64,000 nt of DNA, from the NCBI RefSeq assembly GCF_964204865.1, contig NC_135252.1, positions 21,473,383 through 21,537,382 of the forward strand. Reading direction: 5' to 3'. This stretch comes from Styela clava. Lineage: Eukaryota > Chordata > Ascidiacea > Stolidobranchia > Styelidae. Both the position numbers and the translations under genes were made by a program. The notes under the pieces are model-generated. The model was not told where the DNA came from. It made no database searches and saw only the letters and a list, made by a program, of their open reading frames with translations. Positions 20,493 through 57,037 of this stretch are shown here, piece by piece; position 1 is the first letter of the stretch; every line of letters starts with the position of its first letter.

Positions 20493-21035
20493 ATGAGTCC
20501 AGGACTAAAAGAGTTTATGGATAATCAATCCCAATCCATGAAGGAGATTAAAGATGAACTGTCAATCATCAAAAATTCTCAAACATTTCAATCCAAGAAG
20601 TTTGATGATCTGTTAATACACCAAAAAACAGTTGATGAGCAGCTAAAATTGCAAAACAAAAAAATTCAATATTTAGAAGATCGTGTCCTGGATCTCGAAG
20701 AAGATCTTTGGTATTTAACGGAGCATGTAGAAGATCAGGAAAGACGCTCCAGGCTTGAGAACTTAGAGTTCCACGGAGTACCACCATTACCAAATGAAGA
20801 TACTGACAAGCTGGTGCTGGAGATTTCAAAGCTCATAAAAGTAAACATTCAACTGAGTGACATCTCGTTTAGTCATCGGTTCCCTACTCGCAATCGCAAA
20901 AACCATCCCCCCATCATTGTCCGATTTACTAACCGGAGAATTCGCCATAAAATTTTCGCCGGCAGAATACGAAAGAATAAATTGACGAACACCTTAGATA
21001 TTCTTGAAGAAGAAGATCTTCAAAAAATCAAATAG
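20493..21035 (+). CDS. LINE ORF1 (coiled-coil RNA-binding protein)
   Basis: A 180-residue intact frame. Residues about 10-80 are heptad-rich (many K/E/L/I, e.g. KKIQYLEDRVLDLEEDLWYL) and predict a coiled coil for trimerisation. It is followed by RRSRLENLEFHGVP and an RRM-like part with SFSHRFP and PPIIVRFTNRRIRHKIF, the usual order of L1/CR1-type ORF1 (transposase_22-like). The protein binds element RNA to form the retrotransposition particle. It is shorter than typical ORF1 proteins, so the 5' end may be truncated. It stops 54 bp before ORF2. Confidence 0.7.
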   Translation: MSPGLKEFMDNQSQSMKEIKDELSIIKNSQTFQSKKFDDLLIHQKTVDEQLKLQNKKIQYLEDRVLDLEEDLWYLTEHVEDQERRSRLENLEFHGVPPLPNEDTDKLVLEISKLIKVNIQLSDISFSHRFPTRNRKNHPPIIVRFTNRRIRHKIFAGRIRKNKLTNTLDILEEEDLQKIK

Positions 21036-21088
21036 GTTAGACTATTTTTCATTATGCCTTCATTTTTTCTATACTTTCATAATTATCC

Positions 21089-24000
21089 ATGACATCTGAT
21101 ACCTTATGTTCAGTATGTCATTCTTCATATCGTAGTGATTCATATATATGTTGCAAATCGTGTAATCTTAAATTTCACTTTACTTGCATAACTTTGCCAT
21201 TCCCTAGTTCTAGCTACTTCTGCCAAATGTGCCTTGATTCAAAAGGCCTTACCTGTCCAGTCTTGCCCTCTTGGGAATCTTTCAGTTTGTCTCCAACTGT
21301 AGGCCCCATTACAAGTAAATATGTAGAGTTCGCTAACATTGGGATAGTTTCATCTCAGTATAAGTCGACCGATTTTATTCGTCTTCACCTAAATGTGAGA
21401 TCACTGTCAAAGCATATTGATGATCTGATACAAATGCTGACAAACTTTCAGAAACTCCCCCATATTATTGCGATTAGCGAAACCAGATTAAGCACATCCC
21501 CTATTAGCCCTATACATATTGACTGCTACAACTTTGTTCACTCTGCCTCTCCTACTAAAGCTGGAGGAGTTGGGCTCTTTATACGCTCTGATGTGTCATT
21601 CATAGAATCCCATGAGTATAATCTAAATTTTCCTCATTGTGAAGATTTGTGGATTCAGGTCAATGAATCGCCCATCATCAACCAAAAAAAATTGATTTTT
21701 AATGCTATTTATAAACATCCCAGACCTAACCTTTCTAATTTCACAGAAACAATGGACTCGCTACTTTACAAATTAGAAAATTCGAGAAACCCATTCATAA
21801 TTTTAGGTGATTTGGATATCAACCTAATAGCTCACGATAATTTGACAACTCGGTACACCGACATGCTTCTGTCTCACCTGGCTATTCCCACCATAACGCG
21901 TCCAACAAGAGTAACTTCCACTTCGCATACTTTAATTGATCACATTTACACAAATGCAATTGATCGTTGTTCATCATCTTATATTATATTGCATGACATA
22001 TCAGATCACTTTCCTGTTATGTCATCTTTTTCTTCTACTAGTGCACCTAAATACAAATTCAAAACTCACATGAAACGCAAAATGTCCAATTTTGACACAG
22101 AAATATTTAGATACAGTGCTCGTAATATATTAAATGGATTTGTATTGACACAACTGTCAACTGAGAACTTCAATGAAGTTTTTGGTATTTTTTTTTATCT
22201 TCATTAAAGGACCTAATCAATACCCATGCCCCCATGGTCGCATGCTCGCGTAAAAAATCTAAACTGCTATCAAAGCCCTGGATTACAAAGGGTCTCCATA
22301 AATCCATCAATCGTAAGAGTAAAATGCACAAAAAATATTATTTACATGGCTCTCCAAGTGAACGTGCAATCTACAAAAAATATCATAACACTCTAGTTCA
22401 CTTATTAAGAAAATCAAAGCAAATTCATTATTTATCAAAATAAGCCAATAACAGAGGTGATATTAAACATACATGGCAGACTGTCAAAGAGATTGTAAAC
22501 ACAAAACCAGCAAATGATTCATCAATATCTGAATTGAAAATGGTTTCAAAACAAAAAACAGCCACACAATCGCAAACGAACTTAATAAATTTTTTTCAAA
22601 CATTGGGAAAAGTTTAATAAATGAAGTTCCACAAACGAATATAAATTTCATGAGCTTTCTCGGTGCCCCTATAAAAGATTCTTTATATTTACGGTCAACT
22701 AATGCGACTGAGATATTCAATACCATCTCAGCTTTAAAAATAGGTAAAGCTGCCGGTGCTTATGATATTTCTTCACATTTCTTGAAGAAAATTGCTGACA
22801 TAATCTCGCCAGTTATTGCACATTTTTTTAATACGTCTATAAGAATAGGTATATTTCCAACTGCACTGAAACTTGCCAGAGTTATTCCATTGTACAAATC
22901 CGGCGACAAAACTAACCCATCTAATTACCGACCTATATCTGTCTTATCATGTTTGGCAATTGTCTTCGAAAAACTTTTGTACTGTAGATTAACTGAATTT
23001 TTCGAAAAAAACAAACTAATTAATAAATTCCAATTCGGATTTCAGACAAATCATTCGACAAGTCATGCAATTATTGATCTAATTGAATATATCTATGACA
23101 AATATGAAAAGGGAGAACATGTCTGCTGTGCTTTTTTAGATTTGAAAAAAGCTTTCGATACCGTAAGTCATAACATACTCTTACGCAAACTTCATCATTA
23201 CGGTGTGCGAGGTTGTGCTAATTCTCTTTTAAAAGATTACCTACATGGCCGATTCCAATATGTGGAAGTCGAAAATAATCGTTCGGAGGTTCTTCCTATT
23301 GACTCCGGTGTGATCCAAGGCTCTTCACTTGGCCCTTTATTATTCCTCGTATTTATAAACGACATCTCACGATGTTCGAATTTGTTGACAAATTGTTCGC
23401 GGATGATACTGGTCTCCTAGGTAGTTCCAAATCATCGACTAATCTTCAAAATTGCTTCAACCTAGAATTAAAAAAGGTCTATGATTGGATGCTCTGTAAT
23501 AAGCTAACTATCAATATAGAAAAATCTAAAGTAGTCCACATACGTCCTGGTCGCAACGATCAGAAAACACCTCTGATAATCAAAATGAATGAAACTGAAC
23601 TTGAATCTGTTCCCTCGTATAAATATCTTGGATTGAACATTGATCACCGTTTACGGTGGGATCTGCATGTCAAAGAGTTACATAAAAAACTTTCACGCTC
23701 AATAGGTATACTAAGCAAACTTCAACACTATACAGACCGGAGTACACTCAAAGTGGTATATTATTCACTTTTCCAGACTTACATCCAATATGCAATTGCT
23801 GCCTGGGGATCTGCCACTAAAGCGACCTTAAGAGCTATAAACGTTTTACAGAATAGAGCCATTAGAATCCTATATGGACCGTCCACTCGTGTTAACATGA
23901 ATACCATGTACCATAAAACTGGCGTACTCAAACTTGATGATATCTACAAACTAGAAATATTTAAATTAATGCATCAATACCATAATTGTTGCCTTCCACA

Positions 24001-24232
24001 GGCATTTTCTAAATACTTTGTAAAGCAGAGTAGTGTTCACGATCACAATACTAGATCATCTGCATTGTCATCCTACTTTGTACCACGCCAAACCTACTCA
24101 AAGACACAAAAATCACTCAAATACACAGGTGCGATTATGTGGAATGCTGTACCTGGTGAAATGCGAAGCATGTCTTATCCTCTGTTTAAAATGAAGATGA
24201 AAAAATTTCTTTGGTCCAAGTATCTCGAATGA
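21089..24232 (+). pseudogene. LINE ORF2: PHD finger, endonuclease, reverse transcriptase (three frameshifts)
   Basis: Begins with a C4HC3 PHD finger (CSVCHSSY...CCKSC...HFTC...CQMC, residues 7-49). The AP-type endonuclease follows: LHLNVRSL, ISETRLS, GGVGLFIRSD, ILGDLDIN, LIDHIYTN, ISDHFPV. GDLD stands where GDFN is normal, which would remove a metal-site residue. The frame changes near 22200 (in a T10 run), 22560-22650 and 23390. RT blocks are ARVIPLYKSGDKTNPSNYRPIS, DLKKAFDTVSHNILL, GSSLGPLLF and the catalytic LFADDTGLL (about 23395). The C-terminal end is typical of CR1/L2/Daphne-like elements. It is inactive as it stands. Confidence 0.85.
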
Positions 24233-31393: not shown

Positions 31394-31903
31394 GGTAAGT
31401 ATTATAATTCCCAGATCCCAAATAAAACAACACGACGAAACGCGTAGAATTTAAATGACGCGGAGGATAATTTTTTATGCTCCACGAAGCGAGACGATTG
31501 TTTGCTTTCAGAACAAAAAGGAAGCTTTGTGCCTATGTCTACGATCGACGACGACATATAGAGCACCAGGTTATGATTCAATGAAACGAATTGTCTGCTC
31601 GCGGTATTCAGTTACAAACTTACAATGGCAATACGTTTTTCGGTACCAGTATATTTTTTTGATAGAGTGTCATCCGTATGAGTTATGGTTTCAGGTGCAG
31701 AAAATATCACCCACTTACTAATTAGAACTCGTATTTCAGGCTGGGCCAGGTTACAATTCGTTATTTTTCGCCATGTTAAAATACTGAAATATCTTAATTA
31801 ACCGTATTATCTGATAGCAATACGGGGTTAAATATGAAGGACTTTTATGTATATTTATTTAGGTATTTATATCAGTTATTGTAAAGCAAATTTATTCTGT
31901 AAA

Positions 31904-34900
31904 ATGGATGGATTTCGGGCCGAAGCTGCCCTTGAGCATAAATCAAAAATACTGGATTCTTATTCAAAAATGAAAGATGCTGGGTTGCTCTTAGATTTTA
32001 AAATTGTAATTAAAAATACATCATTTCCAGTTCATCGCAGTTTATTGGCTGCAGGATCGGATTATTTTCAAGCCATGTTTCTTCATGATAAAAAGGTTGT
32101 TGAGCAAGGTGTCGTGGAAATCAAAAAGGTTGGCGCTGAACCTATGAGCCGATGCATAGAGTTCTTATACACAGGAGATACAGACCTAAACAATGAAAAT
32201 TGTCAGGATATTCTCCATGTATCAAGCATTCTGCAAATTGACGCTTTGAAAAAACTTTGTTTCCGTTTCCTGCAAACCAATTTGTCTCCAGAAAACTGTT
32301 TAGTTGTTGCTCATTTGGCAGAGATATACAATGACCATCATGCAAGACCTAGAGCAAAGGAACTAGTAGTCGATGAATTTGAGATGATTGTGAAGGCGGA
32401 TTTGTTCCCCTCCATCAGTTCAACAGACCTTATCTATTACTTGGATAAAAGCAGAGTGGATTCAGTAGTATCTTGGTCGGCTCTCACAACTTGGATCAGA
32501 ACCAACCGAGACCGAGACGATCTCATCAAAGTCTTGGATGAATCACTAAAGGTCATGAAATTACCTATTTCGTTCCTACTGTCGACTGTTCTGGATGACG
32601 ATATTTTTGACAACCGTACGATGAGCAATTTAGTCTCAAAACATGTATTTATGGAAACAGAAAACTTGAAAGAAAATATCACAGCGAGCAATTGTATCAA
32701 ATTGAAAACTTTGGCTAAAGAATTTCTTGACATTGACGGGAAGCCACTAGAGCTTATCAATCAATTCATTGTCGACAATATTGAGGAAGTTTCCAAGTTC
32801 GCTGGTTACGAAGCTTTCAGCGAAGACACGGTTGCAGAATTGGAAACAAAGATGAATAACTGCATTTCTGATAGAGTCAAGTATGAACTCCTTTTGGCTT
32901 GGACACGTTTTAAGGGCGAGCGACGCACACATTTTTCTCGTTTGTTTAAATTGATCAAGCTTAATGAGCTTCCGATCAAATTTATTCAACAAAAAATTGA
33001 AAATGAAAAGTTGGTTGAACAATCTCCGAGTTGCAGTGCATTGCTGGACTTATGCTTAAGTCCCAACGATGAAGATTCCGATAGTGATGATGATATCCGT
33101 TATCGTACATACGGTGTGGACAAATTAATCGATGATGATGAGTTCAAGTTCGTATCAGAAGAAGATTTGAAAATATATTTGAAATCGTATACGCCACTTT
33201 TGCAAAAGAAATGGGAAGCAATGAAACGTTGGATGGAAAATAAAGACAATGCAAACACATTGTTCAAAGACTTATTGACTACAATGGGACCTCCATTTGG
33301 GTTTCTTCTCAAAATAGTTGTAGAAGATCCGTTTTTTGAGAACGAGAATGCACTAAAGGAAATTGCTCTTAGTCTTATTTTCTCTTCAATTTCAGAAGTG
33401 GGAGAATTATGTGACAAAATTGATTTGGAAAATTGCTTCATCCTGAAAACTCTCAACCCATCAATATAATAAAGTCAATCACAATCTTTGGAATTCAGAG
33501 ATTGAGAGGTTTCTGACGATCCACGCACCACTTGTTCTAAAAAGAAAAGAGATATTGGATTTCAGTAAGGATGAAATCGAAAATCTAATACGAGTGACAG
33601 AGTGCAGTGCAGACTTCAAGGCTGAAGCATTGCTAAAATGGGTGAAGCAAAAGTCAGAAAGATTGGATTTGCTACCAGGCCTTTTAAAACTTATCAATCT
33701 GCGACTTCTTACATCACCTACCGTTCGATTGTTGCAGTCGGATCCCACCATTAGTCAATCAGAAGACTCTCGTGAAATTTTGCATAAGTTGGGGTCCAAA
33801 GGTTTGATAACTAAGAACAATTCAATCCTGGACGAGACAATACAAGATTTATTTGTGGTAGATTTATCATCAGGCATGGGATATACCTGTGATCTCTCGA
33901 GTGCAGAGACTTTTGTATTGTCGCAAACTACGAAGATTTTCCCTATAAATATAATCAATATGGGTGAAAACGTATACGGAATAAATTTTAAGAGCGTTCT
34001 TAAACTAAATAGGGAAGGAAATTGGGAATGCTTGTCGCTTATCCCAGAAACCATCCGACGTTGTTTCTTGGAGGAATTCATTTGTGGTCCAAACAAAATA
34101 ATTGCTTTCAAGGATTGCTTAGCTTTCTTTATGGGCTCTAAACTAACGATGTATAATCCTTTCAAGGACGGATGGTCAGATACATTACCCGGATGCGACT
34201 TGAAATCAAAATTTTGTGTCGCCGCATCAGATGAAAGCATTTTTGCATTTAATGGCCAGACGAGAAGAGCAAAACGATTTGACGCGACAGCAAGTAAATG
34301 GTCAGATATTGCTAAAATGCCAACGGAGCAGGTTTTGGCGTCTTGTGCTGTTTTACATAATATGGTTTTTGTTGTCGGAGGAGCTTTTGGAAGCTGGTTT
34401 GAACAATATGTCGGACCGAGAGATATAGTTCAGTGCTATAATCCAAAATCTGATTGCTGGACTAGAATCTCAAACATGTGTCAGCCACCAATATTTCTTA
34501 GCACTTGTGTGGTCAACAACAAATTATATGTCACGGGAGGAAAGAAGGACGGAGGTTTCTCAATTCAACTATATGACGAAGAGAATAATCAATGGGAAGT
34601 GGTTCGAGAACTTGAAACTACGAAACAATATTTTTCCGCATGTGCCATTCCAAGGGGATTTCTGTCCTTCGACTACCGTCAATGTTTCACTTTTGAAGAA
34701 AGCCTTGGTTTACTAGATCGCGTTAATGCTGAATTTGATAGAAAAACCAAAGAAAAATATTCTATTAAGCAGATTATTCCGCTATCTGGCGGAGAAATGA
34801 ATCTACTGGGATGTCGACTTATTTTCCCTCCTTCAGCATTGGATGAAGAAACTGAAGTAATTTTAGCTGTAGACAGTTATCCTAAGAATTCGCCTGGTTT

Positions 34901-36471
34901 TATGGAGCTGGAAACATCGGATAGAATATTTAGTCTCGACTTTCCTATAACACCTGTGATGATTTGCAAACCTTCCATGAAATTCAACAAACCCGTAATT
35001 GTAGAAATGGACAGATGTTTCAGCACTCGAGAAAACAAAACCATTCCAGTTGATATTCAAATAAGAAAAGTAGACTCCGATTGGAAAAAGGTCTCTGAAG
35101 CAATTTTAGGCAATACCAACAAGATTAGATTTACAGTTTCACATTTCTGTGGCATGGCAGTGACTGTTTCCCCAGAGTTAGTCGACGATGGATCGTTTCA
35201 TCTCATTAATGACGTGTACATCCAGAAAATAACCGCTCAAATCGCTTCAGTGTTTTGCAAAGATGAGACAACGCAAAGATCCATGAAAGAGATCCTACAA
35301 GAGGAAAACTTTGTCAAATTTATGGGACCCTCACATGAAATTCTCGAAGGTCTGGGTACTCGAGTCAATCTTCGATTTGAGTGCACAGAACCAGAGCAAA
35401 CGAGAATATCGGAAGGATGTCCATCTTCGCAGTTCGATATAAACAGACAAATTTTCAAAACAAGCAAACATGTGGTTTGTTTCAAACCACTCCCTCGTCC
35501 CCGGGAATATACTGGAGTCATAGATTCCGATTACTATGTAAAAATAAACGAAGAAGCCGAAACGAGACTAATGCTGGCCGTAGAATGGCCGATTCAAACT
35601 AGAGGTAAGTTCACATTATACTGAAAATTTTTTTTGTTTGAAAATGACATGGCGTGTCGTATCCTATCCATAAATTTCGATGGAGAAAGAGCCGTTGCTG
35701 GCCACTCTTTAATTCAGTAAAAGCAACAAAATCGCAGCCATCCCATTATATATATTAAAGTAGAAATACTCGCTCCTTTAAGTATTTCATAATGCTGTAT
35801 GATATTGACTGTTTCATTCAATGAAATTTTACTATATTTAGTTCGCAGTCTACGCGCTACCCTGTTTAAATTATCGCAGCTTTGCGCAAAAGTAAATATT
35901 TATTTTCATTCTCTCCCTGGTACTAAGCGTGTTATGCTGATAAAAGCTGTTAATGTTTTACTAAAACTATACAGCAGCCAAACTATATGATATATTCTAG
36001 CCGAATTCACTACACCCAGAGAAATATAAAGAATATTTGTGCGAGTGGCAACATTTTTTCCTAATTTGACGTCATATACGATTATTACGTCACCACAATA
36101 TACTGGGCTTGCTGACAATATTCCTTCGTTCGTGGCTGTTTAAAATTATTCAAGCTAAAAAAACTAAATTGATCGAGTCATAAAGACCACAAACCTTCGG
36201 GATTGTCGCATAGTCCTATTAGTTCCAGTGTGTATACAAGAATTCCTAACCGCGAAATTTTACCCTTGTGGTGTCGCCCAATTTTAATCATATTTCAAAG
36301 CCGAATATAATAAAAAAAAAATTTTAAATCAATTAAATATTACTTTTTATAGGTACTGGACCAATCAACATATCGAATGTCGTCCACACTGGACCGAGAG
36401 CAAATGTGATGGCAACTGACAATGCGAGGGTAGAGACCCACAGTACGGGCGAGACCAATGTTGTCACATAA
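31904..36471 (+). CDS. BTB - multiple BACK - kelch - ZU5 protein (two exons, one frameshift)
   Basis: Probably a Cullin-3 adaptor or scaffold. Start ATG 31904 (MDGFRAEA) is preferred over 31847 because BTB proteins begin about 20 residues before the domain. Residues ~25-120 form the BTB (FPVHRSLLAAGSDYFQAMF). BACK follows (~125-230, LSPENCLVVAHLAE), then at least two more BACK-like repeats with NCIKLKTL / NCFILKTL starts. Frame 2 stops at 33469, but the other frame reads on as LWNSEIERFLTIHAPLVLKR to 35604. So one indel lies between about 33440 and 33475, either a real lesion or a sequence error. Kelch blades lie at ~33950-34680 (VVGGAFGSW, YVTGGKKDGG). ZU5 is at ~34785-35170 (PLSGGEMNLLG, FPPSAL). 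Exon 1 ends G35604 (gtaagt); exon 2 is 36353-36471, phase 1, stop TAA. Total about 1270 residues. Confidence 0.8.
35605..36352 (+). other. Intron of the BTB-kelch-ZU5 gene
   Basis: 748 bp from gtaagt to ttttatag. It restores a phase-1 junction (AGA G|GT ACT GGA). Ignoring it would end the protein at TRGKFTLY 35624. No other feature is seen inside. Confidence 0.65.
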
Positions 36472-46968: not shown

Positions 46969-47592
46969 GACATTATAACCATCCCCACATCACACCTTCA
47001 ATGACAATATCTTCTCATAAACCTGGCAATTAATCAAAACCTCTGACAAAGTGTAGAGCATTGTGTGAGGGCATACTTCATTCATCGTCTCAACCATTTG
47101 TTTATATTGCAACTTGCCACTTGAAAGTGAAGAGTCGCGACACACAGAGTAGTTTTATATTTAATGCCATGTAGTTATCGGGGTAAGCAATTTATAGATA
47201 CGTTTGTTCGTGATATGTTTTAATCGTCTCATCTACAGATCCCTTTTTTTTTTTTTTTTTTTTTTTTTTGTATCGGATCAGAGTATGTATGGTCTGCCTC
47301 GGATCAGTGTTACATATAATAACACGTCATACCCGAGTCGTATCGGTATTAATCCTCGCAATCACATTGCCGCATATGCGGCGGTCAGATGACATCCACT
47401 CATCACTTCCGTTGGGTTGTTTGATGGTATTCTCAGGAGTATGCTACCATTTGTGGGTGGCATAGATAAAAGGTTCATTACATTTATTGTTGTTAGGATC
47501 TGGTTTTCTAGTTATTTTATTGTTCGTACCCCGCAAGTATTTCTTTCCAATTAGGTTTCAAATTGGATGTGTATACCTTGGGAAATTTTTTG

Positions 47593-50500
47593 TCAAGTTG
47601 ATGGTTGGTTGATGAAATCGGACCATTTTCGAGTTGTTTTGGGGATAATTTTGTCCTCGCTCGGATCGACTGTTCTATTTTCTATATCTAACTTGATTTT
47701 GAAGTTGATTATTGCTAATTTGAATATTAAAAATAGTTTTATGGTTATGGTCTGAACTGTCTGGTTGGGCATGGTGTAAGAGTTGTAGAAGATATTTTCT
47801 TTAGATATTTGTACTGGTATTTTAAGGGTCCTGTTCAATATGCCCGTGGTTTTGGAAAGGTGTCGTGAAATGTAAGAGCAGTGTAAGAAAATGTGTAGGG
47901 TATTGTCTTCACGGCTTCCACAGAATTTGCATTTTAGCAGTTTTCTTTGGCCGTGCGCATCGCTAAACATAGATCTTTTCCGCGCTTTATTCCCAAAGAT
48001 GTACCCATCAGCCACTATTCTGTACGAACATATCTTCTCTTTGTTTGTTGTTTTATGTTTCAGAGTTCTTTGCTTTACGTGAACGCAAGTCCAATCTATT
48101 CCCGTTGGGTATGGAGACTCAGTTTCCAGGTTGTATAGGAGATTTCTGTATATGTCTTTGTGCTTCATGCCAGCCCACTGTTGTTTGGTAAGATGTATTC
48201 CCTTTGTTGTATCCAAATACTTTTGCCAGATTTTGGGGACGAAGGGGAGATGTGGGGTAGAATTTGTATATAAGCTTGGGTTGTTTTTTATGATTTTGGA
48301 TCCTAAAGCATAGACTGCTTCCTGATGCCAAAAAAGGTAAGGTGTATCGATATTGCTTAGTATTTTTATTCGCTCTGCTATACATGCTGAAATTTTAATT
48401 TTGATATTGGGCATATTTATGCCGCCTTCTAACCATGGGCGTTGTAGCGTGGTTCTCTTTATCGCCTCCATTCCCTCGGGGAACCATAGGTATTTAGCAA
48501 CTAGGTGTTGTACCTTGTTGAGATATACTGGCGGTATTTCTACAAATCTCGCGTGATATATTATTAGTGACATGATCAGGGAATTTATTACTGTTAGTTT
48601 TCCAATCCAGGTGAGTTTTCGTGTTTTTAAAAAGTTTAATTTTCTGGTTATTTTGACAAGTGTTTCGTCCCATGTTATTGTTTCCCGCCCTAATCCATAA
48701 TATATCCCCAAGATTTTTGCTGTATCTTTATGGTGGGTATTATAGTTGGATTTCCGGAGACGTTGTGCTGCGTCAGTTGTGAGACTCAATATCTGGGTTT
48801 TATCTATATTAATTTTTTGTCCTGCTGCTTTTTCGTATTTTTGTAATTCAAAGAAGATTTGTTGAATGGAAGTTATATCTCTCACTGCGTAGGTGGCGTC
48901 ATCGGCAAATTGGTCCAGTTTATGTGTGAATTTTCCAAGTTTGATGCCATGTATGTCGGAATTTCGTTGTACTGATCTAATTAGTGGTTCTGCGTTTAGA
49001 ATGTATAACAACATGCTCAATGGGCATCCTTGTCGAAATCCCCTATTGATTTTGATTGGGGAGCTCATTTTACCGTTAATATCTATGTAGTTGTAAATTT
49101 CTTCGTACATGTTTTTGACGATATTGGTTATTTTGGGGCTGAGGCCGATTTCGTGTAATACTTTAAATAGGAAGTTATGGTCTATTCTGTCGAACGCTTT
49201 CAAGTTGTCGATCATTACTAAATATCCTGGAATTTGCTTGGTTTGACAGTAGCGGACAACCGCTTCTAGGTTGTAATGGGCATCAAATATACTTCGTCCA
49301 GGTAAGGTACTCTTTTGCTGTTGGCTTACCAATGTGTTGAGTGGAGATTCTAGTCTTTTGGTTAAAAGCCTTGCAACCAGTTTGTAGTCAAAGTTGAGAT
49401 TCGAGATCGGTCGCCAATTTTTTAGTAGATTTTTGTTTCCCTTTTTAAATATCAATTTCACTCTGGCATAGTGTGAGCTTTGCGGTAGAGCGCCGAAGCT
49501 CAGGATAATATTAATCATATTCGTCAATTTTTCTTTTATCATGTGCCAAAATGTTGTATAGAATTCTTTGCTTAGCCCGTCAGGGCCGGGGGATTTATTA
49601 TTTTTTATATCTTTTATAATAGAAAATATCTCGTCCTCGTTTGTGGGTTTTTCTATCTCTTCATTTTGATCTTGGCTGAGTTGTGTGGCGCTCATTTGAT
49701 TGATATAGTGATGCTGGTGAGATTCGTCTATTTTACACTTCATGCCCCATAGCTCGTTATAGAAATCCTCTACCGCCTTAGTTACTTCGTTTTCACTTGT
49801 AATTGTCTTCCCGTTTAAATTTTGGATAGAATCCATCGATGTTTGTTTTGCGCGTGTTTTGATCCTATCATAGAAGTACTTCGTTGGTTCTTCTCCTTCT
49901 TCTTGATCTTCTATGCCCGCCAGGATTGTTTTATAATTGGCTTTGTTGTCAATCAAGTTTTTTAGCTGTACCCTAAGTCTTTCCAGTTTTCTTACGTCTG
50001 TACTATTCTTGTTGGCCACTGTATTCGCAATGTTTTGTCTTAGTAATTGTTCAGTTATATTGGCTTCTTTTGCTTTTTTTATTGAGTATGCTATAGTTTG
50101 TTTTTTGGTGTTTAGTTTAAAGTTGTCCCACCAATCTAGTAAAGATTCGAAACTTTCAATGTTTATCAAGGCCCTATTATATGTATTTTTTATAATTTCC
50201 AAGTAATCTTTTTCTTTGTATAGCGAGATATTGTTCCGCCACATCCCCCGACCCCATCTTATATTTTTCAAAACTCTGAGTTTAATATATGGGCATAGAG
50301 CGTGATCGGCTACGGTGTTCACGGCATGTCCTACGTATGTAATTAAGGGGTCGATTTCGCGGGAGTTATAAATTCTATCAATCCTCTTGGCTTGCTGGTT
50401 GGCATTGAATATGAAGGTGTAAATTCTTTTATTCTTATTTCGTTGTCGAAAGGAGTCACTTATCTTGTGCTTTGTTAGGAGAGCGTTGAAAATTTTGGCC

Positions 50501-51012
50501 GCGGCCGTGTGTTTCTGGTTGGAAGGGTTTAAAACATCTCGGTTGTCTAGGATCACATTAAAATCCCCTAGAACTATCAAGGGGCTTAGGTAATACATGT
50601 CCTCCAAGATCTGCACCAACTCTTTGTAAAACTCTGTTTTCGGTGCGCCGCTCTTTGCGGGGGCGTACACATTTACTATTTCTATGCAAAGTCCGTCGAT
50701 TTCTAGCGCTAGGCTGCAACATCTGTGTTTAACGCGAACGGAGTATTGAACGCCTTCTATCAGGGCGTTCTTTACCATTATTGCGGTGCCCTTCCTGAAG
50801 GTTTTGTCTTCGGGATCTAATACGGTAAGAGTGTTAGGGAAAATGTGGTAACCCAGTTTTCCTGCCCACTCTTCTACTATGCTGTTTCTGATTTTATTGA
50901 CCTCCTGTAGGCATAGAATGTCAGGTTTTTCATATGATACGAATTGGGCTAGTTTCGTTTTATGATGGTTAAGCCCGTTTACGTTTATTGATATGATTTT
51001 CATTTCGCTCAT
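47593..51012 (-). CDS. LINE ORF2: endonuclease / reverse transcriptase
   Basis: An intact 1139-residue frame. APE-type endonuclease: ISINVNGL (7-14), LCLQEV (~35), LGDFN (~147), VADHALCP (~235). RT: SPGPDGLSKEFY, ARVKLIFKKGNKNLLKNWRPIS, MIDNLKAFDRIDHNFL, GCPLSMLLY and the catalytic FADDATY (~702). The C-terminal CKFCGSREDNTLHIFLHC (~1027) is the CCHC-like motif seen in L1/Tx1 ORF2. The DNLKAFDR block replaces the more usual D-x-x-K-A-F-D spacing without harming it. It performs nicking of target DNA and cDNA synthesis from the element RNA. No stops or frameshifts, so recent and perhaps active. ORF1 lies 190 bp upstream. Confidence 0.9.
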   Translation of the reverse strand: MSEMKIISINVNGLNHHKTKLAQFVSYEKPDILCLQEVNKIRNSIVEEWAGKLGYHIFPNTLTVLDPEDKTFRKGTAIMVKNALIEGVQYSVRVKHRCCSLALEIDGLCIEIVNVYAPAKSGAPKTEFYKELVQILEDMYYLSPLIVLGDFNVILDNRDVLNPSNQKHTAAAKIFNALLTKHKISDSFRQRNKNKRIYTFIFNANQQAKRIDRIYNSREIDPLITYVGHAVNTVADHALCPYIKLRVLKNIRWGRGMWRNNISLYKEKDYLEIIKNTYNRALINIESFESLLDWWDNFKLNTKKQTIAYSIKKAKEANITEQLLRQNIANTVANKNSTDVRKLERLRVQLKNLIDNKANYKTILAGIEDQEEGEEPTKYFYDRIKTRAKQTSMDSIQNLNGKTITSENEVTKAVEDFYNELWGMKCKIDESHQHHYINQMSATQLSQDQNEEIEKPTNEDEIFSIIKDIKNNKSPGPDGLSKEFYTTFWHMIKEKLTNMINIILSFGALPQSSHYARVKLIFKKGNKNLLKNWRPISNLNFDYKLVARLLTKRLESPLNTLVSQQQKSTLPGRSIFDAHYNLEAVVRYCQTKQIPGYLVMIDNLKAFDRIDHNFLFKVLHEIGLSPKITNIVKNMYEEIYNYIDINGKMSSPIKINRGFRQGCPLSMLLYILNAEPLIRSVQRNSDIHGIKLGKFTHKLDQFADDATYAVRDITSIQQIFFELQKYEKAAGQKINIDKTQILSLTTDAAQRLRKSNYNTHHKDTAKILGIYYGLGRETITWDETLVKITRKLNFLKTRKLTWIGKLTVINSLIMSLIIYHARFVEIPPVYLNKVQHLVAKYLWFPEGMEAIKRTTLQRPWLEGGINMPNIKIKISACIAERIKILSNIDTPYLFWHQEAVYALGSKIIKNNPSLYTNSTPHLPFVPKIWQKYLDTTKGIHLTKQQWAGMKHKDIYRNLLYNLETESPYPTGIDWTCVHVKQRTLKHKTTNKEKICSYRIVADGYIFGNKARKRSMFSDAHGQRKLLKCKFCGSREDNTLHIFLHCSYISRHLSKTTGILNRTLKIPVQISKENIFYNSYTMPNQTVQTITIKLFLIFKLAIINFKIKLDIENRTVDPSEDKIIPKTTRKWSDFINQPST

Positions 51013-51202
51013 TTTAGTAATTTAAATTTAACTCACGTTTTTGACTTCCCTTTGTTTTGTTTCGAGATCCTAGGTACATCCATAATTTATATCCGAGTTA
51101 TAATCCTTATTTATATCCAAGTTATGTCTGTGTGGTTCGTTTTGTATCAATTATCTTTCCTGGTGTCTTTTGATTGGTGGATTGGTTGCCACAGTCGATT
51201 GT
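51013..51202 (-). other. ORF1-ORF2 intergenic spacer of the LINE
   Basis: 190 bp without ORF between ORF1 stop and ORF2 start; ORF2 is presumably translated by reinitiation or an internal mechanism. Confidence 0.6.
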
Positions 51203-52525
51203 TTATGTCTGTGGGCGCTCGGTTGTGGCGGAGGCTTTCTCCTTCTTGGGGTTAGGCGGTGTGCACGAGGATGATGCAGAGCTCAAATTAAGTCTATCTC
51301 GTTTATTTGCGCCACTGGCTTGTCCAATTGGATTGTAGTCACTGTTTCCCAAATGAGCGGGGGCCGAGTTATTAATCCACGTATCAGAAAACGAGGAAGA
51401 GTCGATGGATTCGTATCCTCTAACCATTCCTTTTACGTACGATTGTCTTGTCATTTCATGTACTATGGGGGTCTGTCCGATTGTTGAAGTTGGTTTTAAC
51501 TTTCTTCTAGGTGTTCTCGGTATGTCCAACGGTTTCTCTAACTGGGAGTCGTCTCTGCTCAGAGACCAATCTTTTGTTTCGTCGTTTAAGTCATCGTTTT
51601 CGCAGTTTGAGGAGGTTTCGTTATTGCTTATTGCTTGTGTGCTCTCCTCTTCGGTTTGTGGTTTGCTGTTTGGGTTTGCCTCTTCTCTTAGCAATGTTGA
51701 GGATAGCGGCGAAAGGCACATGCCTGCATTAAGTTGTGTTACGTTGTGACGGTTTGTATTTATCCCTGTTTTGTTGTTAGTATTAGCGGTTCTTTTAGAT
51801 ATGTTCCAAGCGGTTGGTTCTTCCTGATTGTGTCGGTCGATACGTTTTTTGCATTGTTTTACGAGGTGTCCTTCCTCTTTGCAGTATCTACATACCGGTG
51901 TATTCTGACATGCGACGAATGTATGGCCCTGTTGTAAACACCTGCCGCATGTCGGAGTGTATAACTCTTGCGGGAGATACGTTTTGCATCTTATTCCATC
52001 GAATATGATATAGTCCGGTAGTTTATCCTTGTTAAAGTCTGTGATGAAAAAAGCGGTATAACCGTTATATATTTCCGTGCCTTTGTGCCAGTTTTTCATT
52101 GCGTTTTTAATTTTGCCGCATTCTAGGTTGTTTATGATTGCCGCGGCCCTCGCAAACGGTGTTTCATCGGGTATGCCTTTGATTGAAATTCTTGTCGGTG
52201 TACCTGCGGGTAGCATGAAGTGGATAGGCCCATACATTGAATTCAACTTGCCACCGGTTGCGCTTAGGAACTCATCCCTGCAACTAGACGTTTCGTTTGA
52301 TGTAGGTTTAAAGGATATTGTCCAGGGACCTCTTCTCACTTCAAATAATCCTTTTATTTCATTGTAGTACTGGTTGACATCGGGTGTTGTTTTTAAAACT
52401 CCAAGCAGTCCTTCAAAATTTATGTTGTCATCCGTCTCGATCATCAGAGATCGCGGTCTGTTATTACTTGGTGTGGTCATTACTGGGGGTATAGCGGCGA
52501 CTTTTGCGTAGGCCATAATATCCAA
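51203..52525 (-). CDS. LINE ORF1: CCHC zinc-knuckle nucleic-acid-binding protein
   Basis: An intact 440-residue frame starting MDIMAYAKV (a second Met at residue 4 is equally possible). Residues ~60-185 resemble the Tx1/gag-like N-terminal domain (FEVRRGPWTISF, IRCKTYLPQELY). Two CCHC knuckles follow: CGRCLQQGHTFVAC (~192) and CRYCKEEGHLVKQC (~211), which bind element RNA. The last 200 residues are polar and low in structure, with many S/T/N. Gag-like ORF1 with knuckles fits Tx1-clade elements rather than mammalian L1. Confidence 0.88.
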   Translation of the reverse strand: MDIMAYAKVAAIPPVMTTPSNNRPRSLMIETDDNINFEGLLGVLKTTPDVNQYYNEIKGLFEVRRGPWTISFKPTSNETSSCRDEFLSATGGKLNSMYGPIHFMLPAGTPTRISIKGIPDETPFARAAAIINNLECGKIKNAMKNWHKGTEIYNGYTAFFITDFNKDKLPDYIIFDGIRCKTYLPQELYTPTCGRCLQQGHTFVACQNTPVCRYCKEEGHLVKQCKKRIDRHNQEEPTAWNISKRTANTNNKTGINTNRHNVTQLNAGMCLSPLSSTLLREEANPNSKPQTEEESTQAISNNETSSNCENDDLNDETKDWSLSRDDSQLEKPLDIPRTPRRKLKPTSTIGQTPIVHEMTRQSYVKGMVRGYESIDSSSFSDTWINNSAPAHLGNSDYNPIGQASGANKRDRLNLSSASSSCTPPNPKKEKASATTERPQT

Positions 52526-52575
52526 AGGTATTTAGACTATCTTGTAATTCCAACTATAACTTGTTCCTAAGGCTG

Positions 52576-52597
52576 GATCTTAGCCGAAGAGCCGAAG
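52576..52597 (-). other. Degenerate second U2-like stem-loop I in the LINE 5' UTR
   Basis: The complement reads CTTCGGCTCTTCGGCTAAGATC. Aligned with the U2 5' end (CTTCTCGGCCTTTTGGCTAAGATC) it matches at 19 of 22 positions with a 2-nt gap. It lies ~40 nt inside the intact U2 head. Confidence 0.5.
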
Positions 52598-52635
52598 ATC
52601 GATACTCAGGTCTAGCTAGCATACGACCTACTACT

Positions 52636-52673
52636 GATACTACACTTGATCTTAGCCAAAAGGCCGAGAAGCG
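52636..52673 (-). ncRNA. U2 snRNA 5' fragment (nt 3-40) at the LINE 5' end
   Basis: 38 nt identical to the conserved U2 5' end: stem-loop I (CGCTTCTCGGCCTTTTGGCT), then AAGATCAAGTGTAGTATC with the branch-site-pairing GTAGTA. It ends at U2 position 40, where LINE 5' UTR (AGTAGTAGGTCG) begins. It is not a functional U2 gene: the Sm site and 3' half are absent. Confidence 0.92.
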
Positions 52674-52926
52674 AGATCCCACGCAAAAACCAATGTCCTG
52701 CTGTGTTTACAAGCATTAACCATTATAATTATGTTTGTAAATTAAGCCATTAAATGGGAGATTAGTACGATGACAGCAAATTCGCACCCAGGACCATTGA
52801 ACTCATATATTTCCATCGACATATTTTATCACCTGCAATTTGGATTGCCCCGACAGACATTTGTACTCACGAACATTTTTTCACCTACCGACATTTGCCC
52901 CAATGCAATTTTGCGATCGCAAAACG

Positions 52927-52987
52927 CATCTCCGCTGGCACTCGAACCCAGAACCTCTGGATTAGAAGTCCAGCGCGCCACGGAGAC
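52927..52987 (-). pseudogene. tRNA-Arg(TCT) pseudogene lacking the D arm
   Basis: 61 nt. Twelve bases between two GCGC words (the D-arm region, A box) are missing, and one T-stem base is changed (TGGCACTCG). It cannot fold as a tRNA and lacks the A box. Confidence 0.85.
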
Positions 52988-56455: not shown

Positions 56456-56976
56456 GACATTATAACCATCCCCACATCACACCTTCAATGACAATATCTT
56501 CTCATAAGCCTGGCAATTAATCAAAACCTCTGACAAAGTGTAGAGCATTGTGTGAGGGCATACTTCATTCATCGTCTCAACCTTTTGTTTATATTGCAAC
56601 TTGCCACTTGAAAGTGAAGAGTCGCGACACGCAGAGTAGTTTTATATTTAATGCCATGTAGTTATCGGGGTAAGCAATTTATAGATACGTTTGTTCGTGA
56701 TATGTTTTAATCGTCTCATCTACAGATCCCACGCAAAAACCAATGTCCTGCTGTGTTTACAAGCAATAACCATTATAATTATGTTTGTAAATTAAGCCAT
56801 TAAATGGGAGATTAGTACGATGACAGCAAATTCGCACCCAGGACCATTGAACTCATATATTTCCATCGACATATTTTATCACCTTCAATTTGGATTGCCC
56901 CGACAGACATTTGTACTCACGAACTTTTTTTCACCTACCGACATTTGCCCCAATGCAATTTTGCGATCGCAAAACG

Positions 56977-57037
56977 CATCTCCGCTGGGACTCGAACCCA
57001 GAACCTCTGGATTAGAAGTCCAGCGCGCCACGGAGAC
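56977..57037 (-). pseudogene. tRNA-Arg(TCT) pseudogene lacking the D arm
   Basis: Same 12-nt D-arm deletion as 52927-52987 but without the T-stem change, so the deletion predates the segmental duplication and the T-stem change followed it. Confidence 0.85.

Follow-up and report, generated by a model that had tools for sequence, protein, structure and literature searches.

An L1-like LINE with a U2 snRNA start in a tRNA-Arg array

The window analyzed here, a 64,000-nt stretch of the ascidian Styela clava genome (assembly GCF_964204865.1, contig NC_135252.1, positions 21,473,383 to 21,537,382), carries on its minus strand, from 47244 to 52673, a single long interspersed nuclear element (LINE). 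The element consists of a head derived from U2 small nuclear RNA (snRNA), a short 5′ untranslated region (UTR), two open reading frames (ORF1 and ORF2), a 3′ UTR and a poly(A) tail, and both reading frames are open (Table 1). Among solved structures, human L1 ORF2p is the closest to ORF2 (E 9e-69, residues 3-879), and with its two ORFs, an apurinic-type endonuclease followed by a reverse transcriptase (RT), the L1 ORF2p-like protein and poly(A), the element has the features that define the L1 group.

The LINE is inserted in an array of transfer RNA (tRNA) genes for tRNA-Arg(TCT). The preliminary description of this stretch had placed the head directly inside a 7-bp AGATCCC duplication and had regarded the insertion as off-target. 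Both views hold, and the empty site, CATCTAC-AGATCCC-ACGC, is preserved in a sister unit of the array; the sequences from 52674 to 52973 and from 56724 to 57023 are 99% alike. Two units of this array (52927-52987 and 56977-57037) give only a shortened 61-nt gene match and no ARAGORN call.

Table 1. Features of the U2-headed LINE and of its insertion site in the window.
Feature	Position	Strand	Remarks
U2 snRNA head, nt 3-40	52636..52673	-	38-nt identity; head recurs in 4 further copies
Spacer AGTAGTAGG... separating outer and inner U2-like segments	52604..52635	-	
Probable older, degenerate U2 nt 1-31 head	52573..52603	-	24/31 identical, ungapped; as good a score in 2/1000 dinucleotide shuffles
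ORF1, 437 aa, zinc knuckle	51203..52516	-	Pfam zf-CCHC E 6.8e-4, just under cutoff
ORF2, 1139 aa, apurinic-type endonuclease and reverse transcriptase	47593..51012	-	PF03372 E 2.3e-14; PF00078 E 2.8e-30
Poly(A) tail, 26 nt (T run on the plus strand)	47244..47269	-	
Target duplication AGATCCC, 3′ side of the element	47237..47243	.	
Target duplication AGATCCC, 5′ side of the element	52674..52680	.	
Uninterrupted target site, sister unit of the tRNA-Arg array	56724..56730	+	

The U2 reference was taken from the same genome, in which C10 holds a full U2 gene (Rfam U2, 178.7 bits; C and L numbers are our own labels); its first 61 nt were used. Comparison with this gene confirmed the identity of the head that had been described before, and an exact U2 match of this length lies far beyond chance expectation. 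U2 nt 2 (T) matches as well, being the last base of the duplication at 52674, so that the head reads 2-40 if this base is counted. The inner U2-like segment, to which the preliminary description had made no reference, is probably an older, decayed U2 head, judging from its remaining similarity, and would indicate that the lineage wore a U2 leader earlier.

Dispersed copies share the head and its junction

Genome-wide searches, which covered 376.6 Mb, detected seven close copies of the LINE 3′ end (97-100% identity) and six of its 5′ end, the copy ending at C9:17365283 being the one without a 5′ match. The U2 head is present in five of the six, namely the window element and four further copies. 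Three of these, two on C16 and that on C13, have it from U2 nt 1 onward, the window element from nt 2/3 and the C9 copy from nt 4-6. The sixth copy, on C1, starts within the inner U2-like segment and has no outer head. Four family copies, the window element included, have the junction U2-40|AGTAGTAGG in common; that of the C13 copy differs by a 9-bp deletion between GTAGTA repeats, and the 5′ part of this copy is inverted, for which twin priming is likely. Divergence within the family is 0-1% over ∼1.35 kb of the 5′ part, with the exception of C16:620598, which is 5.5-6% divergent and loses homology near its end. Target duplications measure 7 bp at the window element and 57 bp at the C9 copy.

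Since four copies share this junction and all five headed ones start within U2 nt 1-6, the data support that the head belonged to the copied RNA and was inherited, in line with the earlier proposal of an RNA starting at or near U2 +1. The shared junction together with the low divergence therefore points to one chimeric RNA source that gave rise to the window family recently. Template-switch chimeras would be expected to show a new junction in each copy, and this is not what the four copies show.

snRNA and tRNA heads in other families

The U2 head is not a unique event. Four additional U2 heads occur in three other LINE families, whose ORF1 is 46, 40 and 39% identical to that of the window family. 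They comprise U2 nt 4-50 in C2, nt 2-36 in C6, up to nt 35 in C5 and nt 1-33 in C17, where the C5 and C17 copies represent one family, and the duplications that enclose them are 16 bp (C2), 13-15 bp (C6), 8-10 bp (C5) and 9-14 bp (C17) long. Altogether, a direct duplication lies outside the head in 6/9 U2-headed LINEs, the window element included, eight of the nine having been examined for one (the two C16 copies are discussed below). The suggestion that all off-target copies start with U2 nt 1-40 is thus borne out within the window family, except by the C1 copy, and does not extend to the other families with their other junctions and heads.

Several heads are stacked. In C2, the duplication also contains a U5-like 5′ part as an additional leader ahead of U2; its score stays below the Rfam gathering cutoff (35.4 bits, cutoff 40; E 0.0099). 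In the C6 copy, the U2 piece is directly followed by U1 nt 1-39, identical to a C10 U1 gene; L077 and L078 of the same family have U1 to nt 37 and a different spacer. The U2 head of L120 is degenerate and scores below the Rfam cutoff (25.4 bits), L151 carries a U1 piece at its 5′ end, and in L119 the 5′ end consists of tRNA-Gly 1-32 and a spliced-leader-like exon, the LINE 3′ end being absent from L173. A second copy of the C2 family, L072, has tRNA-Lys nt 1-45 as its start (Rfam tRNA 32.1 bits) and no clear duplication was seen around it. The 3′ ends of L077, L120, L151 and L134 are absent from the pieces examined. The leader stacks read U5-U2-LINE, U2-U1-LINE, tRNA-Gly-spliced leader-LINE and U2-old U2-LINE; the U5 start, tRNA-Gly, tRNA-Ser and the tRNA-Lys of L072 are probable assignments. 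A tRNA-Asp head considered for L122 was dropped, as the 3′ flank repeats the surroundings of tRNA-Asp and the LINE start is unclear.

Some further sequences were observed around these heads. A 44-nt sequence, AGTAAAGTTCAGTGTGG..., belongs to the stacked leaders of the C2 copy and is repeated at many sites (L074-L076, L082 and L154; ∼39 of 42, among the matches listed; 805 first-look candidates for the whole query). A segment of ∼155 nt just downstream of a C10 U2 gene (L007, ∼250 nt after its start) also lies directly upstream of the U1-headed C3 LINE (L078, ∼470-625), and is possibly another small RNA or a repeat. In the family of L086-L091 (C9, C13, C4), the 5′ ends have parts that are probably tRNA-Lys-like and, in 4/6, also tRNA-Ser-like, and several of these copies lie near tRNA genes.

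Relatives inside spliced-leader-like and tRNA genes

A 226-aa piece of ORF1 used as query revealed at least 150 relatives. For a census, 92 of these matches were chosen (those starting near the ORF start, with clusters thinned) and the first 80 were read at their 5′ ends; members of the window family were excluded, as were most of the copies described above. Among the 80, 19 are immediately preceded by an exon, ATTATTCGCTATTTGATTAAG or a variant, together with a conserved promoter-like stretch, another 28 have the exon without the promoter-like stretch (15 from its nucleotide 1, 4 from nucleotide 2), and 33 have no such exon (match threshold 27; the best of 240 letter shuffles reached 25). In uninterrupted units the exon is followed by GTAAG. 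The exon is probably a spliced leader. It resembles the Ciona spliced leader ATTCTATTTGAATAAG as given in PMC7986045, and because of this resemblance the arrays may be read as spliced-leader RNA genes.

The exon/intron border of the spliced-leader-like genes is the insertion point in L095-L098, L100, L102, L105, L106, L116, L121, L128, L130, L133, L136, L138 and L143, which are located at C4:23.3-23.4 Mb and C6:19.3-19.8 Mb. In L084 and L092, a poly(A) followed by the remainder of a spliced-leader-like gene is seen upstream. Some families continue with GTAAG or GTGAG and may have kept the leader-donor site beside the captured exon.

Transfer RNA genes are interrupted as well. L123/L172 splits a tRNA-Ile(AAT) gene, with nt 1-33 before the element, GCGTCGTGC and the remainder after it, and a 9-bp duplication; when its flanks are joined, ARAGORN calls a whole tRNA-Ile(AAT). 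The junction of this copy, GTCGTGC|GCGAGTGG, is common to L124, L131 and L134 elsewhere in the genome, each of which starts inside the tRNA; L124 has a duplication (shared ATATATGGGTT, partly overlapping the head), and none was seen at L131. L089/L170 is likewise inserted in a gene, that for tRNA-Lys(CTT), and has a 7-bp duplication.

In two cases, the spliced-leader-like and the tRNA-Ile genes, some copies thus reside in the host gene and others, dispersed in the genome, bear the 5′ part of that gene and share the junction. With U2, dispersed copies of this sort were observed, but no in-gene counterpart. The mechanism of the preliminary description, residence in a host gene and use of its promoter, is in this sense seen in the clade but without an in-gene copy for U2 itself.

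Two kinds of U2 and U1 genes

A pattern of U2 nt 5-29 with at most one mismatch occurs at 13 places, which are nine LINE heads and four U2 genes. With nt 5-28 and up to three mismatches, 17 places were found, the four extra ones being one diverged C10 U2 copy and three copies of a C6 array. U2 genes are of two kinds, a 1169-bp tandem array with a variant stem-loop I (C6:17.53-17.77 Mb, L021-L035) versus a few dispersed canonical genes (C10:11.71 and 12.00 Mb, C3:10.02 Mb). U1 is split similarly into C5 arrays and the C10 kind, and of the U1 heads, the three long enough to include the distinguishing position agree with the C10 genes.

Origin of the U2 leader

We favor, with a probability of roughly 0.55, that the leader was captured by residence in a small-RNA gene and use of its promoter. 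The window element would be an off-target copy of an L1-like LINE whose clade lives in small-RNA genes. A source copy would have stood in a U2 gene, with its junction after U2 nt 40, and would have been transcribed from the U2 promoter into an RNA that starts at U2 +1 and has U2 1-40 as leader. This RNA would have been reverse transcribed at unrelated sites, here the tRNA-Arg array, with the leader copied nearly to its end, and the source copy would since have been lost or be absent from the assembly. Everything from which this proposal starts was observed: the head and its duplication, a junction held in common, copies that begin at U2 +1 or close to it, insertion at scattered sites, and relatives that survive inside spliced-leader-like and tRNA-Ile genes. 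Promoter use is favored above all because several offspring of one source start at U2 +1 and none of them has upstream DNA like that of a U2 gene, the latter by a weak test.

A number of results weigh against a source in a U2 gene. Source copies inside U2 genes at position 40/41 had been predicted, and this prediction found no support: U2 follows none of the seven family 3′ ends (0/7), all scores lying below those of shuffles, and two exact patterns retrieved no LINE tail in a U2 gene. A poly(A) at most 30 nt before U2 nt 40-61 gave four matches, all in the C6 array, of which the two that were read proved to be intact U2 differing by a G-to-A substitution, and the letters matched in the remaining two are the same; a poly(A) before U2 nt 50-65 gave none. 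One exact pattern likewise found no LINE tail in a U1 gene. Upstream of the nine U2-headed LINEs, the DNA is unlike that of the five U2 genes compared, all scores being within shuffles, a weak test as the genes' own upstream regions are only weakly alike. The U2 junctions of the other families (nt 33, 35, 36 and 50) vary more than a strict target would give, no duplication was found at either C16 copy, and all nine exact U2 heads match the dispersed genes of C10 and C3, not the C6 array. This last point is compatible with two readings: in-gene copies, being harmful, were lost from a small number of genes, or capture took place at the RNA level and drew on the kind of U2 that is expressed.

Because the searches with U2 nt 50-65 and with the U1 pattern found no in-gene copy, a little weight has moved toward a template jump, in which the RT leaves the 5′ end of the LINE RNA, lands in U2 snRNA near nt 40 and copies to the U2 5′ end, one such chimera becoming the master of the family. 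This origin is possible, and we consider it the less probable one. Its strongest argument comes from the varied inner junctions and from the failure of the exact U2 and U1 patterns to reveal a copy residing in an snRNA gene. The U2 and U1 heads and the U5-like piece reach or nearly reach the first nucleotides of their RNAs, the stacks U5-like-U2-LINE and U2-U1-LINE each lie inside one duplication, and internal L1 jumps onto U5, including 3′-truncated U5, are among the cases reported in PMC4476161. The junction common to four copies nevertheless shows an inherited head, and the relatives document an in-gene route. Sister copies likewise start at U2 +1, although a dispersed copy has no recognizable U2 promoter, again by the weak test. 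In addition, U6, the main mammalian partner (PMC4476161), is not among the heads that we recognized, although no search was aimed at U6. The junctions at nt 35 (L019) and nt 33 (L020) were not used as independent proof of template jumping, since they are one indel and one substitution apart and may be one ancestral junction.

It is improbable that the U2 start serves the element itself, being maintained by selection as an internal promoter or 5′ structure and renewed over time, an explanation that makes no statement about residence in U2 genes. U2 heads in four LINE families, where the ORF1 identity of the other three to the window family is 39-57%, and the two tandem U2-like segments of the window family would agree with it, but sister families have other heads or none that can be named (33/80 lack the spliced-leader-like exon), and U2 nt 1-40 is not known to act as a promoter. 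To a chance match or an assembly chimera we give virtually no credence: nothing was found in favor of either, and the 38-nt identity, the duplications, the uninterrupted site and separate copies with the same junction, repeated at four places, rule them out.

Extending the favored origin, residence in a small-RNA gene, to all heads, we tentatively propose, at somewhat less than even odds, that a tunicate LINE clade lives in small-RNA genes (spliced leader and tRNA, and presumably U1, U2 and U5), is transcribed from the promoters of these genes and inherits the corresponding 5′ ends as leaders. Each change of host would add an outer leader, so that the 5′ end would be an ordered record of past hosts.

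Other features of the window

An Rfam scan of the window at gathering thresholds reported tRNAs only and no known ribozyme family. Other open frames, at 3-2914, 20493-24232 and 31847-35624, look by eye like integrase/transposase pieces, a second LINE of a different type and a BTB-kelch-like gene.

Comparison with known systems

Target-specific LINEs and LINE/snRNA chimeras are already known. In the open-access papers searched, most subscription papers lying outside this search, we found no description of a replicating family that inherits an snRNA leader and belongs to a clade with recurring and stacked leaders. Such a family within such a clade would connect promoter capture with target choice and template switching, and would make it possible to examine in nature how retroelements acquire a promoter and how snRNA- or tRNA-headed ones can arise.

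PMC4640811 describes two LINEs linked to U2. Utopia, a LINE with a restriction-like endonuclease in U2 genes, is linked to the same U2 region as the window head; the U2 sequence downstream of Utopia starts at nt 39, the 3′ flank of Keno is identical, and Utopia in Phytophthora has no 5′ part of U2 next to it (PMC4640811). As described there, Utopia is generally one protein with a C-terminal restriction-like endonuclease, whereas the window LINE has two ORFs and an N-terminal apurinic-type endonuclease; without the Utopia layout, it was rejected as a member of that group. Keno is closer, being likewise a U2-linked LINE with an apurinic-type endonuclease, and the start of its U2 flank (nt 39) is near the end of the window head (nt 40). 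In that account (PMC4640811) Keno targets U2 genes, whereas in the window family no 3′ end is followed by U2, which is present only as the inherited 5′ head. Assignment to Keno or the Tx1 clade fails on insertion in U2 genes with the downstream U2 3′ part, and in terms of phylogeny nearness is shown to L1 ORF2p only.

The snRNA/L1 template-switch chimeras covered in PMC4476161 resemble the window LINE in having an snRNA 5′ of a LINE within one target duplication, and they include 3′-truncated U5. They are mostly U6 in mammals, whereas in the present case a chimera forms a family that replicates, and the clade shows such heads repeatedly and in stacks. R2, as portrayed in PMC12192640, is also a LINE in a multicopy RNA gene that makes use of host transcription (28S rRNA), but R2 RNA reportedly removes the host leader by self-cleavage, in contrast to the window family, where the leader is kept and copied.

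SLACS and NeSL are inserted at the spliced leader gene, as are the spliced-leader-like relatives found here. Both carry restriction-like endonucleases. In contrast to SLACS and NeSL, the relatives in Styela clava are linked through ORF1 to an L1-like element with an apurinic-type endonuclease, and their dispersed copies keep the leader exon.
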